The position numbers and the translations under genes are program-made. This document shows positions 8,920 to 14,177 of a stretch of 64,000 bases of DNA, one piece after another. The DNA is taken from contig NZ_CP079110.1 of the NCBI RefSeq assembly GCF_019357495.1, positions 620,001 through 684,000 on the forward strand, read 5' to 3'. This DNA is from Nosocomiicoccus ampullae. Its GTDB lineage: Bacteria > Bacillota > Bacilli > Staphylococcales > Salinicoccaceae. Below the pieces are notes generated by a model that made no database searches, had not been told where the DNA came from, and saw nothing but the letters and a program-made list of their open reading frames with translations. Position 1 is the stretch's first letter, and each line of letters begins with the position of its first letter.

Positions 8920-10125
8920 TTGAGTGGTAAATTATATGAGTTAAAAGATCATTGGATGTTAATCATTGCTTTAATGCTTGTTGCTTCCATTTTACGTGCG
9001 CCGATTACGTCTGTCGGACCAGTAGTTGATCAAATTAGAGATGCATTAAATATTTCAAATACAGTCGCGGGATTACTGACAACGATTCCTTTACTAATAT
9101 TTGGTGTTGTGTCTCCATACATACCAAGACTTGTTCGAAAGTTTTCAATCAATCACGTCATATTTTATTCATTAATTATTATATTATGTGGACTCGTCAT
9201 TCGTAATCTATCGAGTGTAGAATGGTTTATATTAGGAACTATTATTATTGGATTAGGTATTGCGGTCGGTAACGTAACAATTCCAAGTTACGTGAAGCTT
9301 CGATTTCCACTTCATATAGGTCTAGTTACTGGATTATACGGTGCAGTTATGAACGCTATGGCGGGTGTTGGTGGTGGTTTATCAGTACCATTATCTGAAA
9401 CAAGTGCGTATGGTTATAAACTATCATTATCTATTTGGATAATCTTAACAGTTATAGCTATTTTATTTTGGATTAAACAATTAAACGCTCAGAAATATGA
9501 AGCACAATATATTGATGAAGGTGCAGTTACACTAACAATTAAAGACTTACTTAAATCGAGAATCGCATGGGGTGTCGCACTTAGTTTTGGATTACAATCT
9601 ATGATTTTTTACAGTGTCGTTGCGTGGATACCGACAATTTTAGTATCCCAAGGATTAACATTTAAAACAGCTGGGTATTACTTTATGTTTGCACAGTTCA
9701 TACAAGTTCCGATTGCGTTTATATACCCTCAATTTGTTGAAAGTGTAAAAAATAAAAGGATTCCTGTAGTTATAATATTTGTTGCTTTTGTTACAGGATT
9801 TAGTTTAATGTTTGTTGAAAATAAAATAGTACTACTATTTGCAATGCTAATCATGGGTGTCGGCGTCGGTGCTGCATTTTTAACATGTATGGTCTTTTTC
9901 TCTTTAAAAGCAAATACATATGACGGTAGTATGATGCTGTCTGGATTCTCACAATCCATTGGATACGTGATTGCGGCAAGTGGACCACTTATTATGGGAG
10001 TTATTCAAGACTACATTCAAAATGAAATCATTAACATTTATATTTTCATCGCGTTAAGTATAATAGTATTTATAACATTAATGATTGCAGCTGAAGATAA
10101 AACTGTCGAAGAAACGATTAAATAA
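8920..10125 (+). CDS. MFS transporter, CynX/NimT type
   Basis: A 401-residue integral membrane protein with about 12 hydrophobic segments in two halves, the layout of the major facilitator superfamily. The start region LRAPITSVGPVVDQI and the loop PYIPRLVRKF are typical of the CynX/NimT (cyanate/nitroimidazole-type) branch. Start is TTG with AAAGGAG eight bases upstream. Substrate unknown. The stop is followed by the SelO gene after 13 bases, so the two are likely one operon. Confidence 0.85.
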   Translation: MSGKLYELKDHWMLIIALMLVASILRAPITSVGPVVDQIRDALNISNTVAGLLTTIPLLIFGVVSPYIPRLVRKFSINHVIFYSLIIILCGLVIRNLSSVEWFILGTIIIGLGIAVGNVTIPSYVKLRFPLHIGLVTGLYGAVMNAMAGVGGGLSVPLSETSAYGYKLSLSIWIILTVIAILFWIKQLNAQKYEAQYIDEGAVTLTIKDLLKSRIAWGVALSFGLQSMIFYSVVAWIPTILVSQGLTFKTAGYYFMFAQFIQVPIAFIYPQFVESVKNKRIPVVIIFVAFVTGFSLMFVENKIVLLFAMLIMGVGVGAAFLTCMVFFSLKANTYDGSMMLSGFSQSIGYVIAASGPLIMGVIQDYIQNEIINIYIFIALSIIVFITLMIAAEDKTVEETIK

Positions 10126-10138
10126 AGAGGTAGATATA

Positions 10139-11473
10139 ATGTATAGCTACACATATTTAAATAATAGTGAAGTGTTTTATGAAGAGCATTCACCAGTGAA
10201 TTATGAATATAAAGAAAGATTATTTAACGTACCTTTAGGTCGTAAATTTAATTTTAATAATGCTTCTGATATTTTTAAAAATCAACGTACTCCATTTTCT
10301 CAAAGTTATTTTGGTCACCAATTTGGGAGTCCAGTTATTTTAGGTGATGGAAGACAAATTATTTTAGGCGAAGCGCTATTGGACAATTCTTACGTTGATA
10401 TTGCAGTGAAAGGAAGCGGACCGACAAAGTATTCACGTGGCGGTGATGGTTTATTACCACTAAACGCAGCAATTAAAGAATATATTTATTCTGAGTTTTT
10501 ATATAACATTAATATTCCAACAACGAGAAGTCTCGCACTATTAGAAACGACAGAAATTGCTGAACGAGAAGCTGATAAAATAGCAGCACTGCTTATCAGA
10601 GTTGCGAATTCCCATCTACGTGTTGGAACAATTCAGTTTGGAAAAATCGCTGGAGAACCGTATTTAAAAGAGATCATTGATTACTCTATAAATAGACATT
10701 ATTCATACCTCAGTGAATTAGAAAATAATGTAAAATACAAAAAGTTTTTTGAAATGGTCGTTAGAAAACAAGCAGAACTCGTGGCAATGTGGCAAAGTGC
10801 TGGATTCGTGCATGGAGTTATGAATACAGATAACGTAACAATTGACGGTTCGACAATTGATTTTGGGCCATGTGCATTTATAGAAACATATGACCAAAAT
10901 GCAGTATTTAGTCAAATCGATCAGCAAGGAAGATATCGCTTTTCAAATCAAGCAAAGATTATGCATTGGAATTTAAGTAAACTTGGTGAGGCTATGATTA
11001 CTTTATTTAGCGATGATGAAAAAGAAGCGGTGGAAATAGCACAATCTGTTCTCGATGAATTTCCATTAATTTATAACCGAAAATGGTTTATGTTAATGGG
11101 AGAAAAAATTGGAGTTGAACAGATTGATTATAATAGTGAGACAGACCAGAAAATGATTATTGAATTTTTAAAGGAAATCGAAACTAGACAATTAGATTAT
11201 ACGAATACGTTTAGACAACTAGCTCTTGGTAGATTAGATTTCACACCAAATTACGGTGATCATTCTGTCAATTTTGATTTAATGAAAAAGAAAAATCCGT
11301 CATTTGTACCAAGACATCATACAGTTTTAAACGCGATAGAAGAAGCATTAAACGGGGACTACAATAAAGTCCATGAAATGCTTAAAGCATGTACTAAACC
11401 ATTTAATGATAATGTACCGGAGTACTTAAAAGAGTCAAAAGGAAATAACTTTTATACGACGTGTGGTACGTAA
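10139..11473 (+). CDS. selO: protein adenylyltransferase SelO (YdiU family)
   Basis: SelO is a pseudokinase-fold enzyme that transfers AMP to Ser/Thr/Tyr of target proteins, linked in other bacteria to redox stress. Seen here: VKGSGPTKYSRGGDG, EYIYSEFLYNINIPTTRSLALLET, SHLRVGTIQFG, HGVMNTDNVTIDGSTIDFGPCAFIE and QGRYRFSNQ. A longer frame from 10085 would overlap the transporter; ATG at 10139 with AAAGAGGTAG upstream is preferred and gives 444 residues. That is shorter than usual (about 480–490), mostly in the middle to C-terminal part. The protein ends TTCGT, keeping the C-terminal cysteine known in this family to form a regulatory disulfide. Confidence 0.92.
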   Translation: MYSYTYLNNSEVFYEEHSPVNYEYKERLFNVPLGRKFNFNNASDIFKNQRTPFSQSYFGHQFGSPVILGDGRQIILGEALLDNSYVDIAVKGSGPTKYSRGGDGLLPLNAAIKEYIYSEFLYNINIPTTRSLALLETTEIAEREADKIAALLIRVANSHLRVGTIQFGKIAGEPYLKEIIDYSINRHYSYLSELENNVKYKKFFEMVVRKQAELVAMWQSAGFVHGVMNTDNVTIDGSTIDFGPCAFIETYDQNAVFSQIDQQGRYRFSNQAKIMHWNLSKLGEAMITLFSDDEKEAVEIAQSVLDEFPLIYNRKWFMLMGEKIGVEQIDYNSETDQKMIIEFLKEIETRQLDYTNTFRQLALGRLDFTPNYGDHSVNFDLMKKKNPSFVPRHHTVLNAIEEALNGDYNKVHEMLKACTKPFNDNVPEYLKESKGNNFYTTCGT

Positions 11474-11489
11474 AACTTAATTAGGTAAT

Positions 11490-11533
11490 AAAAATACTCC
11501 TAAACTAGACTTCTAGTTTAGGAGTATTTTTTA
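11490..11533. terminator. bidirectional terminator between selO and ykvI copy 1
   Basis: A perfect 17-bp stem (AATACTCCTAAACTAGA and its complement) around a 2-base spacer, A-rich on one side and T-rich on the other. It serves both convergent genes. Confidence 0.93.
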
Positions 11534-12619
11534 TTCTTCATCTTCTGTATTGTCATAATAAGGTGAACGCTGTACTTTCTTTCTTATCCATAACACAAAG
11601 TATCCAATTGCAATAATAATTCCTAAATATCCATATAATGGATAGAATATGTTAATTAACGTAACAAATCCAATGCGTGTTAAAAAGAATGCAACGACCA
11701 TTAGAATGATCATCAATGTAACGTATGATTTACTCTTAAAATCAGTAAATCTAACGAGTACAGCATACATTAAAGCGACTACTGTATTGTAAATTAAAAT
11801 AATAATAATGATAGAGTATATCGAACCAAACCACGGGTGTACAGCATCCGCGACGACTAATGCTGGCACATCTTTAGTTACAGCAGCGTCCATGTTTAAT
11901 AATAAACTTCCATTCAAGAGGAGTAGTAAAATAAGTACAAACAAACCACCGAGTAATGATCCATCTTTAACGACATCATATAGTCTCGTATCTGATCCCA
12001 TAATCGTAATAAAACTATATCCGACACCGAACATTAGTCCCGCATAGACTACCGCATCAATCCACCAAATATTCCAAGGAGGGACAGTAGAATCCGCGTA
12101 TGTAGCACCCTCAGAAATTGACATATCTGCAGTCGAAAAGGCATATATAGACATAACAGTTACCATAATTAAAAGAATTGGTGTTGCGATACCGAGTAAG
12201 TTAATAATTTTATCAAAATCTAACATTAACGTAATTGAAACGAGTACAATCAGTACGATTGTACCCATCCAAGTCGGTAGACCAAAACTTTCATTTAAGT
12301 TACTACCACCACCAGCGAGCATTATGAAGCTCGTGACGAACATAAAAAAGACGAGAGAATAGTCGAGAATACGACCGACTACATTACCAAATAACTTATT
12401 TAGAGTTAACTCATGTGACTCAACGTCGTATATGTACCCGACTTTAGCAATTTGTCTAAAAATAAACGTCATAATTAAAACAGATAAAATAATAGATATG
12501 AAGCTCGCCATTCCATTATTCGTAAAAAATTGCATAATTTCTTGGCCAGTTGCAAATCCGGCACCGATAACGATACCACAATATGCAAAGGCAAATTTAA
12601 ATAGTTCCTTAATATTCAA
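11531..12619 (-). CDS. YkvI-type membrane transporter-like protein, copy 1
   Basis: A 362-residue, roughly 10-helix membrane protein of the uncharacterised YkvI family (APC/NSS-like fold). The signature GAGFATGQEIMQFF in the first helix is the broken-helix substrate/ion region expected for that fold. Also visible: GGGSNLNESFG, VPPWNIWWIDA, SFITIMGSDTRLYD. Start is TTG, chosen because AGGAG lies eight to nine bases upstream and because the neighbouring copy has the same start. It is very similar along its length to the gene at 13056–14144 and both are 362 residues, so the pair arose by tandem duplication. It has its own promoter (12649–12676). Substrate unknown. Confidence 0.85.
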   Translation of the reverse strand: MNIKELFKFAFAYCGIVIGAGFATGQEIMQFFTNNGMASFISIILSVLIMTFIFRQIAKVGYIYDVESHELTLNKLFGNVVGRILDYSLVFFMFVTSFIMLAGGGSNLNESFGLPTWMGTIVLIVLVSITLMLDFDKIINLLGIATPILLIMVTVMSIYAFSTADMSISEGATYADSTVPPWNIWWIDAVVYAGLMFGVGYSFITIMGSDTRLYDVVKDGSLLGGLFVLILLLLLNGSLLLNMDAAVTKDVPALVVADAVHPWFGSIYSIIIIILIYNTVVALMYAVLVRFTDFKSKSYVTLMIILMVVAFFLTRIGFVTLINIFYPLYGYLGIIIAIGYFVLWIRKKVQRSPYYDNTEDEE

Positions 12620-12648: not shown

Positions 12649-12676
12649 ATTATACAATAAGATATAGTTGTGTAAA
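12649..12676 (-). promoter_or_regulatory. promoter of ykvI copy 1
   Basis: On the minus strand: TTTACA, 16 bases, TATAAT, ending about 30 bases before the TTG start. The second copy has the same -35, spacing and -10, with AAACTTTACA shared. Confidence 0.75.
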
Positions 12677-12806
12677 GTTTACAATTACTTTTTATATAAC
12701 TTTTAACCATCTTTGCGTTTAATAAATATAATAAAAAATCTATTTAACCAGATAGATAAGATTAATGTGTAAAAATATATAGTATTTTATCCGCAGTTAA
12801 ATCGTA

Positions 12807-12957
12807 CGTTAACGCAAATTGATTTTACGTTAAAGAGTGTTTACTTTCATTGACAATTATAGCGGATACGTTAACGAATCACATACCATGTTGACACAAA
12901 TCCGATTTGCATTAATAGATGAAAAAAACATTAATGCAAATTGATTTTACGTTAACG
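12807..12957. repeat. array of CRTTAAYG-type palindromes and a 25-bp direct repeat
   Basis: The gap 12620–13055 (436 bases) holds no gene. It contains the palindromic octamer CGTTAACG at 12807, 12869 and 12950, CATTAATG at 12929, and one-mismatch versions at 12828 (CGTTAAAG) and 12910 (CATTAATA). Start-to-start distances are 21, 41, 41, 19 and 21, close to multiples of two helical turns. Around the sites at 12809–12833 and 12931–12955 a 25-base direct repeat is shared with one mismatch (core GCAAATTGATTTTACG). The array lies 130–310 bases upstream of the ykvI copy 1 promoter. Confidence 0.7.
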
Positions 12958-13023
12958 AATGAGTAAATAGTTTAATGAAAAATAAACTCTATGAAATTAA
13001 ACAATAGTTCATTATAAAATAAA

Positions 13024-13055: not shown

Positions 13056-14144
13056 TTAATCTTCAATATTTGTACGATCGTAATATTTTGAACGCTGTAC
13101 TTTCTTTCTAATCCATAATACAAAGAATCCTAGACCGACGATAATTCCTAGATATCCATATAATGGATAGAAAATATTAATTAATTCTACGAATCCAATT
13201 CTCGTAAATAGGAATGCAACGACCATTAATATTGCTAATAGTATTGCATAATTTTTACTTCTTGCTTTTGTAAATCTAACAAGTACAGCATACATTAACG
13301 CAACTACAGTGTTGTAAATCAGTACGATTATAACGATAGAGTAGATAGATCCAAACAATGGATGTACCGCATTAGCAACGACTAGTGCAGGGATGTCTTT
13401 AGTGACTGCAATATCCATATTTAACAGTAATCCACCATTTAATAGTAGCATTAAAATAAGTACAAATAATCCACCGAGTAATGATCCTCTTTTAACTACT
13501 TCATAAAGTCTAGTGTCAGAGCCCATAATCGTAATGAAACTAAATCCAACGCCGTACATTAGCCCGGCATATACAGTTGCGTCAATCCACCAGACGTTCC
13601 AAGGTGGAACAGATGAATCTGCATATTTAGCACCTTCAACAACTGAAAGATCTGCATTAATAAATGCAAAAATTGTCATGAAGATTACCATAATTAAAAG
13701 AATAGGTGTAGCGATACCAAGTAAGTTAATAATTCTATCAAACTTTAGCATTAATGTAATTGAGACTAATATAATCATAACGATTGATCCAACCCAAGTA
13801 GGCATACCGAAACTTTCATTTAAGTTACTTCCGCCCCCTGCAATCATTACAAAACACGTCACATACATAAAGAATACTAATGCGTAGTCTAAAAATGTTC
13901 CGAAGTATTTTCCAAATAATTTTATAAGAGGTAACTCATGGGAATCAACATCATATAAATAGCCAACTTTTGCAGATTGTCTAAATACAAAAGTTACCAT
14001 TAAGACAGCAAGAACAATTCCTGCAAAACTCATAATCCCATCATTTGTAAAGAACTGCATAATCTCTTGACCTGTCGCAAAACCAGCACCGATAACGATA
14101 CCGCAGTATGCGAAAGCAAACTTCAAGAGTTCTTTAATATTCAA
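13056..14144 (-). CDS. YkvI-type membrane transporter-like protein, copy 2
   Basis: A tandem paralogue of the gene at 11531, 362 residues when started at the TTG at 14144. An ATG nine codons upstream is possible but the sequence AAAGGGAG sits between the two, ideally placed for the TTG. The same motifs appear: GAGFATGQEIMQFF, GGGSNLNESFG, VPPWNVWWIDA, GFSFITIMGSDTRLYE. Differences are scattered along the protein rather than clustered, so both copies look functional. It is separated from copy 1 by its own terminator and has its own promoter, so the two can be regulated independently. Confidence 0.85.
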   Translation of the reverse strand: MNIKELLKFAFAYCGIVIGAGFATGQEIMQFFTNDGIMSFAGIVLAVLMVTFVFRQSAKVGYLYDVDSHELPLIKLFGKYFGTFLDYALVFFMYVTCFVMIAGGGSNLNESFGMPTWVGSIVMIILVSITLMLKFDRIINLLGIATPILLIMVIFMTIFAFINADLSVVEGAKYADSSVPPWNVWWIDATVYAGLMYGVGFSFITIMGSDTRLYEVVKRGSLLGGLFVLILMLLLNGGLLLNMDIAVTKDIPALVVANAVHPLFGSIYSIVIIVLIYNTVVALMYAVLVRFTKARSKNYAILLAILMVVAFLFTRIGFVELINIFYPLYGYLGIIVGLGFFVLWIRKKVQRSKYYDRTNIED

Positions 14145-14177
14145 TTGATCATCTCCCTTTTGTGAATACATTTGATG

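Follow-up and report, generated by a model that had tools for sequence, protein, structure and literature searches.

Introduction

A 436-bp gap between two duplicated transporter-like genes of Nosocomiicoccus ampullae carries a set of regularly spaced palindromes, and the question is whether these serve a neighbouring gene, the chromosome or only themselves. The gap lies in the window, a stretch of 64 000 nt (G000:C1:620001-684000) of the N. ampullae chromosome (G000; 1.55 Mb, starting with dnaA). Two genomes of the same genus, Candidatus N. stercorigallinarum (G001) and N. massiliensis NP2 (G002), were compared. We consider the chances about even that a dispersed element, represented here by one of its copies, forms the binding lattice of a putative protein and has a structural or boundary role, as distinct from a switch for one promoter. 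No prior description of the element was found in the open-access literature.

The array in the window

The features of the locus were located as follows (window coordinates).

11531..12619, - strand: transporter-like gene copy 1 ('YkvI'), ORF of 362 aa, 78% identical to copy 2
12649..12676, - strand: likely sigma-A promoter of copy 1, TTTACA-N16-TATAAT, judged from its sequence
12804..12981, + strand: whole element, in the orientation giving 41-41-40 steps; match of the sequence model
12809..12833, + strand: palindrome P1, TTAACGCAAATTGATTTTACGTTAA, half-site matrix scan, 30.0 bits
12834..12849, + strand: linker P1-P2, 16 bp, length fixed across catalogued copies
12850..12874, + strand: palindrome P2, TTGACAATTATAGCGGATACGTTAA, bearing the special half-site TTGACRATTA
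12875..12890, + strand: linker P2-P3, 16 bp
12891..12915, + strand: palindrome P3, TTGACACAAATCCGATTTGCATTAA, half-site matrix scan, 25.9 bits
12916..12930, + strand: linker P3-P4, 15 bp
12931..12955, + strand: palindrome P4, TTAATGCAAATTGATTTTACGTTAA, half-site matrix scan, 27.2 bits
12972..12981, + strand: P5, degenerate terminal (ninth) half-site, about TTTAATGAAA
13019..13049, - strand: intrinsic terminator of copy 2, AGCCTATCCAG(TAA)TTGGATAGGCT followed by a T-run
13056..14171, - strand: transporter-like gene copy 2, ORF of 371 aa

The array is thus placed between the terminator of copy 2 and the candidate promoter of copy 1, about 130 bp from the latter. Pfam and NCBIfam gave zero matches for both transporter-like copies, and the name YkvI used in the original prediction was not confirmed. 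Relatives of the duplicated genes were found in most of the family, with up to five in some genomes. At 10085-11473 the window encodes a YdiU/SelO-like protein, scoring under the family cut-off, which is probably a divergent adenylyltransferase.

The original prediction described six octamers of the type CRTTAAYG. All were present at the reported positions, CGTTAACG at 12807, 12869 and 12950, CATTAATG at 12929, CGTTAAAG at 12828 and CATTAATA at 12910, with steps of 21, 41, 41, 19 and 21. The 436-bp gap contained four exact octamers versus 0.06 expected (maximum of two in 2000 dinucleotide shuffles) and seven with at most one mismatch versus 1.1 expected. The direct repeat reported around the octamers was also recovered, measuring 34 nt at 88% identity (12806-12839 versus 12928-12961). 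The octamers are only fragments of a larger unit, each joining CG or CA to the outer end of one 10-bp half-site. Of eight half-sites, six had been caught and the left arms at 12850 (TTGACAATTA) and 12891 (TTGACACAAA) overlooked.

The larger unit is an element of about 178 bp at 12804-12981, made of four 25-bp palindromes starting at 12809, 12850, 12891 and 12931, in steps of 41, 41 and 40 bp. The palindrome consensus, TTWACGCAAA-N5-TTTGCGTWAA, consists of two inverted 10-bp half-sites across 5 bp. The special half-site of P2 recurs in P2 of nearly all elements, as TTGACRATTA or near it, on either the left or the right side, and the P5 half-site is better kept as TTRACAANWA in other copies than in the window copy. 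A sequence-only model built from 30 elements, the window copy itself among them, matched 12805-12980 (G000:C1:632805-632980) with 100 bits and an E value of 9e-29.

The TTWA cores follow one another at 21, 20, 21, 20, 21, 19, 21 and 20 bp (mean 20.4 bp), corresponding to two turns of 10.2 bp. The phase resultant was 0.96 at 10.2 bp per turn and 0.15 at 10.7, and the claim that the sites share one face of the helix holds for the outer TTWA cores. Nucleosomal DNA has the same period of 10.2, and DNA may be wrapped on the lattice.

Copies in the chromosome and the genus

The G000 chromosome (1299 N included) was scanned with a half-site matrix for palindromes of at least 16 bits. 34 were found in 1.55 Mb, 32 of them within nine loci at about 351, 508, 536, 613, 633, 732, 1030, 1149 and 1482 kb, and their spacing was strongly periodic genome-wide. 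The two isolated strong palindromes are comparable to the 0-4 obtained in Markov controls, and reversed-pattern controls gave zero across 60 genomes; strong palindromes therefore occur only inside arrays.

The catalogue comprises 32 elements from the three Nosocomiicoccus genomes, 30 with four palindromes and two partial. Their near-ungapped alignment has sharp edges: the left edge lies 3-4 bp ahead of P1, and the four palindromes at 41-41-40 are followed by the one half-site TTRACAANWA. The 351-kb copy contains six palindromes in steps of 41-41-40-41-41. Tandem copies of the element lie 243-245 bp apart (about six lattice steps) at two unrelated loci and 287 bp apart (seven lattice steps) at one. 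Tandem copies with a 245-bp period were seen in N. massiliensis at L068:2014-2734 (G002:C130). Several N. massiliensis contigs stop within arrays, which suggests longer unassembled arrays.

G001 has orthologues of eight of the nine G000 loci, and the window array is kept in this relative with the same gene pair; the contig G001:C57 was excluded by alignment as orthologue of the 1030-kb locus. Six N. massiliensis arrays are missing at the matching G000 sites, as in the convergent pair L064, where the gap is about 290 bp in N. massiliensis versus 28 bp in G000. Since array presence differs between the species, copies come and go and individual copies are dispensable. Weak model hits in G000 and G001 (1204k, 1339k, 491k, 1372k and 1078k; C69, C53 and C82 of G001) were without the palindrome lattice and were rejected as AT-rich chance matches.

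At two G002 loci (L064, 2400-2740; L062, 2080-2390) similar terminator sequences flank the array on both sides, for example CTAGATACTCG both before and after the L062 array, and the empty L064 site in G000 has a single terminator sequence. The doubled terminators may have arisen by target duplication or may mark the scar of a deletion.

A near-perfect dif site (one mismatch) was located at G000:C1:872087, near the GC-skew maximum at 863.9 kb, which makes the replichores uneven, at about 872 and 677 kb. The nine loci lie on both replichores with no origin or terminus bias (p 0.2). The suggestion of an origin-like site is accordingly not supported, dnaA being at 0.3 kb and the copies showing no bias towards origin or dif.

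Selection on sequence and spacing

Orthologous elements of G000 and G001 were compared. Changes per site amounted to 0.078 in arms, 0.32 in loops, 0.18 in linkers and 0.16 in flanks (arms versus loops plus linkers, Fisher p 2e-12). Within elements one indel was counted against 283 substitutions, versus 32 against 585 in the flanks (p 7e-5), in a test partly biased by a catalogue selected for fixed spacing. Two extra orthologous pairs, aligned without the spacing condition and among the weakest elements, had three 1-bp indels inside. The less changed arms and the rarity of indels indicate that both sequence and spacing are under selection. The loop cores are 70% GC versus 31% in the flanks, the 5-bp centre being otherwise free in sequence, as for indirect readout. 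The original reading of the gap as a probably cooperative palindrome array and not a random spacer is backed by the recurrence of the unit across the genome, by its conserved spacing and by the selection on its arms. Neither observation named beforehand as refuting that reading was made, the array being conserved in G001 and the palindrome spacing being periodic throughout the genome.

Distribution among relatives

The 30-element model matched one other genus of the family (E 7e-8 and 3e-7), represented by one genome, G004. Here the arrays, at eleven loci, are simple tandem repeats of 41 bp in which 2-11 sites can be recognised. The site has the same 25-bp width and reads TTTAYG-N13-CRTAAA, and the linker is nearly palindromic, CTTGTG-N4-CACAAG. 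At the opposite end of the gap of a TTTAYG array, past a run of N, another 41-bp tandem repeat, unlike the first in sequence (GAATCGACAGAGTCGAGCAAGAGGCTCTACCATCCCAATGA), was observed (L112:3568-3662, G004:C8).

A two-site pattern was found at 28 places per strand in G004 and at 7-10 per Nosocomiicoccus genome. It gave nothing beyond one chance hit in about 150 other Staphylococcales and one isolated match in about 360 other Bacilli. Outside Nosocomiicoccus the strict palindrome gave only array-free matches in unrelated genomes. A phage origin was rejected, since the viral contig collection contained no exact copy of the strict palindrome.

Genomic setting

All nine G000 loci are intergenic. 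The neighbours include thiT/uppP, DUF554/asp23, GNAT/DcuC, ferredoxin oxidoreductase/ABC transporter, NIF3/DcuC, Dus, NERD and an ABC protein with a CBS domain, among which no common function or pathway was found. LplA and NERD genes stand beside arrays in both genera, on different sides, which was taken as coincidence. A predicted intrinsic terminator separates a neighbouring gene from the array at ten of 14 tabulated Nosocomiicoccus loci and precedes the array at ten of the eleven G004 loci. Several arrays lie between convergent gene 3' ends. Two of the nine G000 loci are convergent, which is what long gaps give anyway; nine of eleven are so in G004 (p 5e-5 versus 22% of long gaps in G000, a background taken from another genus). 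Arrays behind terminators, mostly convergent in one relative, make a structural or boundary role most likely and not that of a promoter switch.

Proposed model

A putative sequence-specific dimeric protein would bind each 25-bp palindrome. The 41-bp step would set every TTWA core on one helix face (about 10.2 bp per turn), and contacts between neighbouring dimers would yield a compact, possibly wrapped, nucleoprotein block. Such blocks would act as structural or boundary elements by organising, anchoring or insulating the chromosome; the anchoring site named in the original prediction is one possibility. The rigid 41-41-40 architecture in 32 elements from three species supports a lattice. Against the model, the search found no binding protein, ParB-domain counts are not raised, the ori or dif bias that a classical macrodomain element might show is absent, and copies are dispensable (six N. 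massiliensis arrays not in G000; the ykvI array not in N. massiliensis).

We put forward only tentatively the narrower form of this model, a lineage-specific chromosome organiser. The putative protein would sit on inverted TTWA half-sites phased at 20.5 bp, with a nucleosome-like wrap at about 10.2 bp per turn. The result, in Nosocomiicoccus and one related genus, would be fixed blocks of structural or insulating function that occupy untranscribed gaps, above all those between convergent genes. If a protein is bound, the arrays would be compact, conserved, non-promoter sites in fixed helical phase, at nine loci that can be deleted or mapped. They would allow a direct test of the role of dispersed palindromic repeats in a bacterial chromosome, and of whether phased arrays separate convergent genes as boundaries. 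Without a bound protein, they are a strongly ordered repeat family with an unexplained constraint.

Known systems and alternative explanations

Among known systems, the arrays come closest to sopC-like tandem centromeres (PMC6238139) and REP/BIME repeats (PMC3733652); the defining features of both were tested and are mostly lacking here. The F-plasmid centromere (sopC/parS-F) consists of 12 tandem 43-bp repeats, in which SopB binds 16-bp inverted repeats (PMC6238139). The tandem repeats of about 40 bp with a single palindrome each, as in such parABS systems, were found (41 in G004; 41-41-40 in Nosocomiicoccus). The present arrays resemble sopC in having units of 41 versus 43 bp, up to about 11 sites (G004) and, as proposed here, a protein lattice on phased sites. 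Unlike sopC, they are many per chromosome, with a 25-bp palindrome of different sequence, and the nine loci are dispersed over both replichores and not at one place near the origin or a par operon. No cognate ParB beyond Spo0J and Noc was found, G000, G002 and G004 having two ParB_N proteins, the number seen in relatives; the single weak third hit of G001 is absent from the other three. A centromere protein of non-ParB type is possible. The sites for the chromosome-organising proteins MatP (matS), Spo0J (parS) and Noc are likewise dispersed and palindromic, but the present ones lack an ori or ter bias, occur in clusters of four to eleven instead of singly and have another sequence. A CRISPR-like array was rejected, the repeats being divergent and the 15-16 bp linkers partly conserved.

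The main rival, which we regard as possible though doubtful, is a selfish or domesticated interspersed repeat of the MITE or REP/BIME type. A putative transposase would bind the palindromes, and copies would settle in tolerated gaps behind terminators without gain to the host. Loci that are not orthologous share the same architecture of about 178 bp, which implies that it has been copied to new positions; presence varies by species (the L064 gap, for example), similar terminators lie on both sides of the L062 and L064 arrays as target duplication could give, and the location between unidirectional and convergent genes is REP-like (PMC3733652). Like REP/BIME, the arrays are palindromes scattered between genes and often at the 3' ends of these, but they differ in their fixed 41-bp lattice and in a double-stranded logic in place of a hairpin, the stems showing no covariation. 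Arms and spacing are, moreover, kept in orthologous copies, the element ends are without terminal inverted repeats, and no array-associated gene was found. The four array-bearing genomes (G000, G001, G002 and G004) have zero Y1/RAYT transposases; the IS200/IS605-like Y1 family PF01797 is absent from them and occurs in three other genomes of the family. The GTAG or CGTC tag that RAYT-mobilised REP carry at one end of an imperfect hairpin was not found as a constant feature, the ends reading TTAAT/TTTCG and TTRACAANWA.

A regulatory operator array for one or both neighbours at each locus, in the window for repression or activation upstream of ykvI copy 1, appears unlikely; an operator array was among the readings of the original prediction. 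The window array does lie upstream of a plausible copy 1 promoter, and several arrays lie upstream of genes for transporters, DcuC and ABC transporters among them. However, the window array belongs to a dispersed set of nine, several of which lie between gene 3' ends, and the convergent loci have no promoter to control; together with the unrelated neighbours, which share no pathway, this placement argues against operators. Other promoters are also without isolated palindromes. Between the same two genes of N. massiliensis, the terminator is followed directly by the conserved promoter, in about 150 bp in total and without an array.

It is quite improbable that the arrays are strong sites for DNA gyrase (or topoisomerase IV) which, like BIME-2 of Escherichia coli, would absorb supercoils at gene ends. 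BIME-2 elements are gyrase targets (PMC6379681), and like them the arrays are intergenic, helically phased and at gene ends, convergent in G004; the element length is close to the gyrase wrap and the AT/GC pattern alternates. The GC period of the E. coli gyrase motif is 10.75 bp (PMC6379681) versus 10.2 for the lattice, whose resultant falls to 0.15 at 10.7, so that gyrase is a poor match. The enzyme is also universal, whereas the lattice is limited to two genera among those searched, and a near-fixed 20-base palindrome of specific 10-bp half-sites exceeds the specificity that gyrase needs.

An RNA element, in which transcript hairpins would terminate transcription, stabilise 3' ends or serve as small RNAs, is very improbable: the palindromes could give 10-bp stems and lie at 3' ends, but P2 interrupts its own stem and allows no full one, element orientation relative to the flanking genes is mixed and the arrays mostly lie behind terminators. 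Covariation between arms was absent in both Nosocomiicoccus (734 Watson-Crick pairs versus 729 expected with shuffled partners; p 0.25) and G004 (334 versus 344 expected), and this independent variation speaks for a protein site in double-stranded DNA, recognised by a dimer, and not for a hairpin. Searches of six loci gave no match to the arrays at the Rfam gathering score. They returned one TPP riboswitch outside the arrays, at L051:1683-1768, upstream of the thiamine transporter gene that adjoins the 351-kb array.
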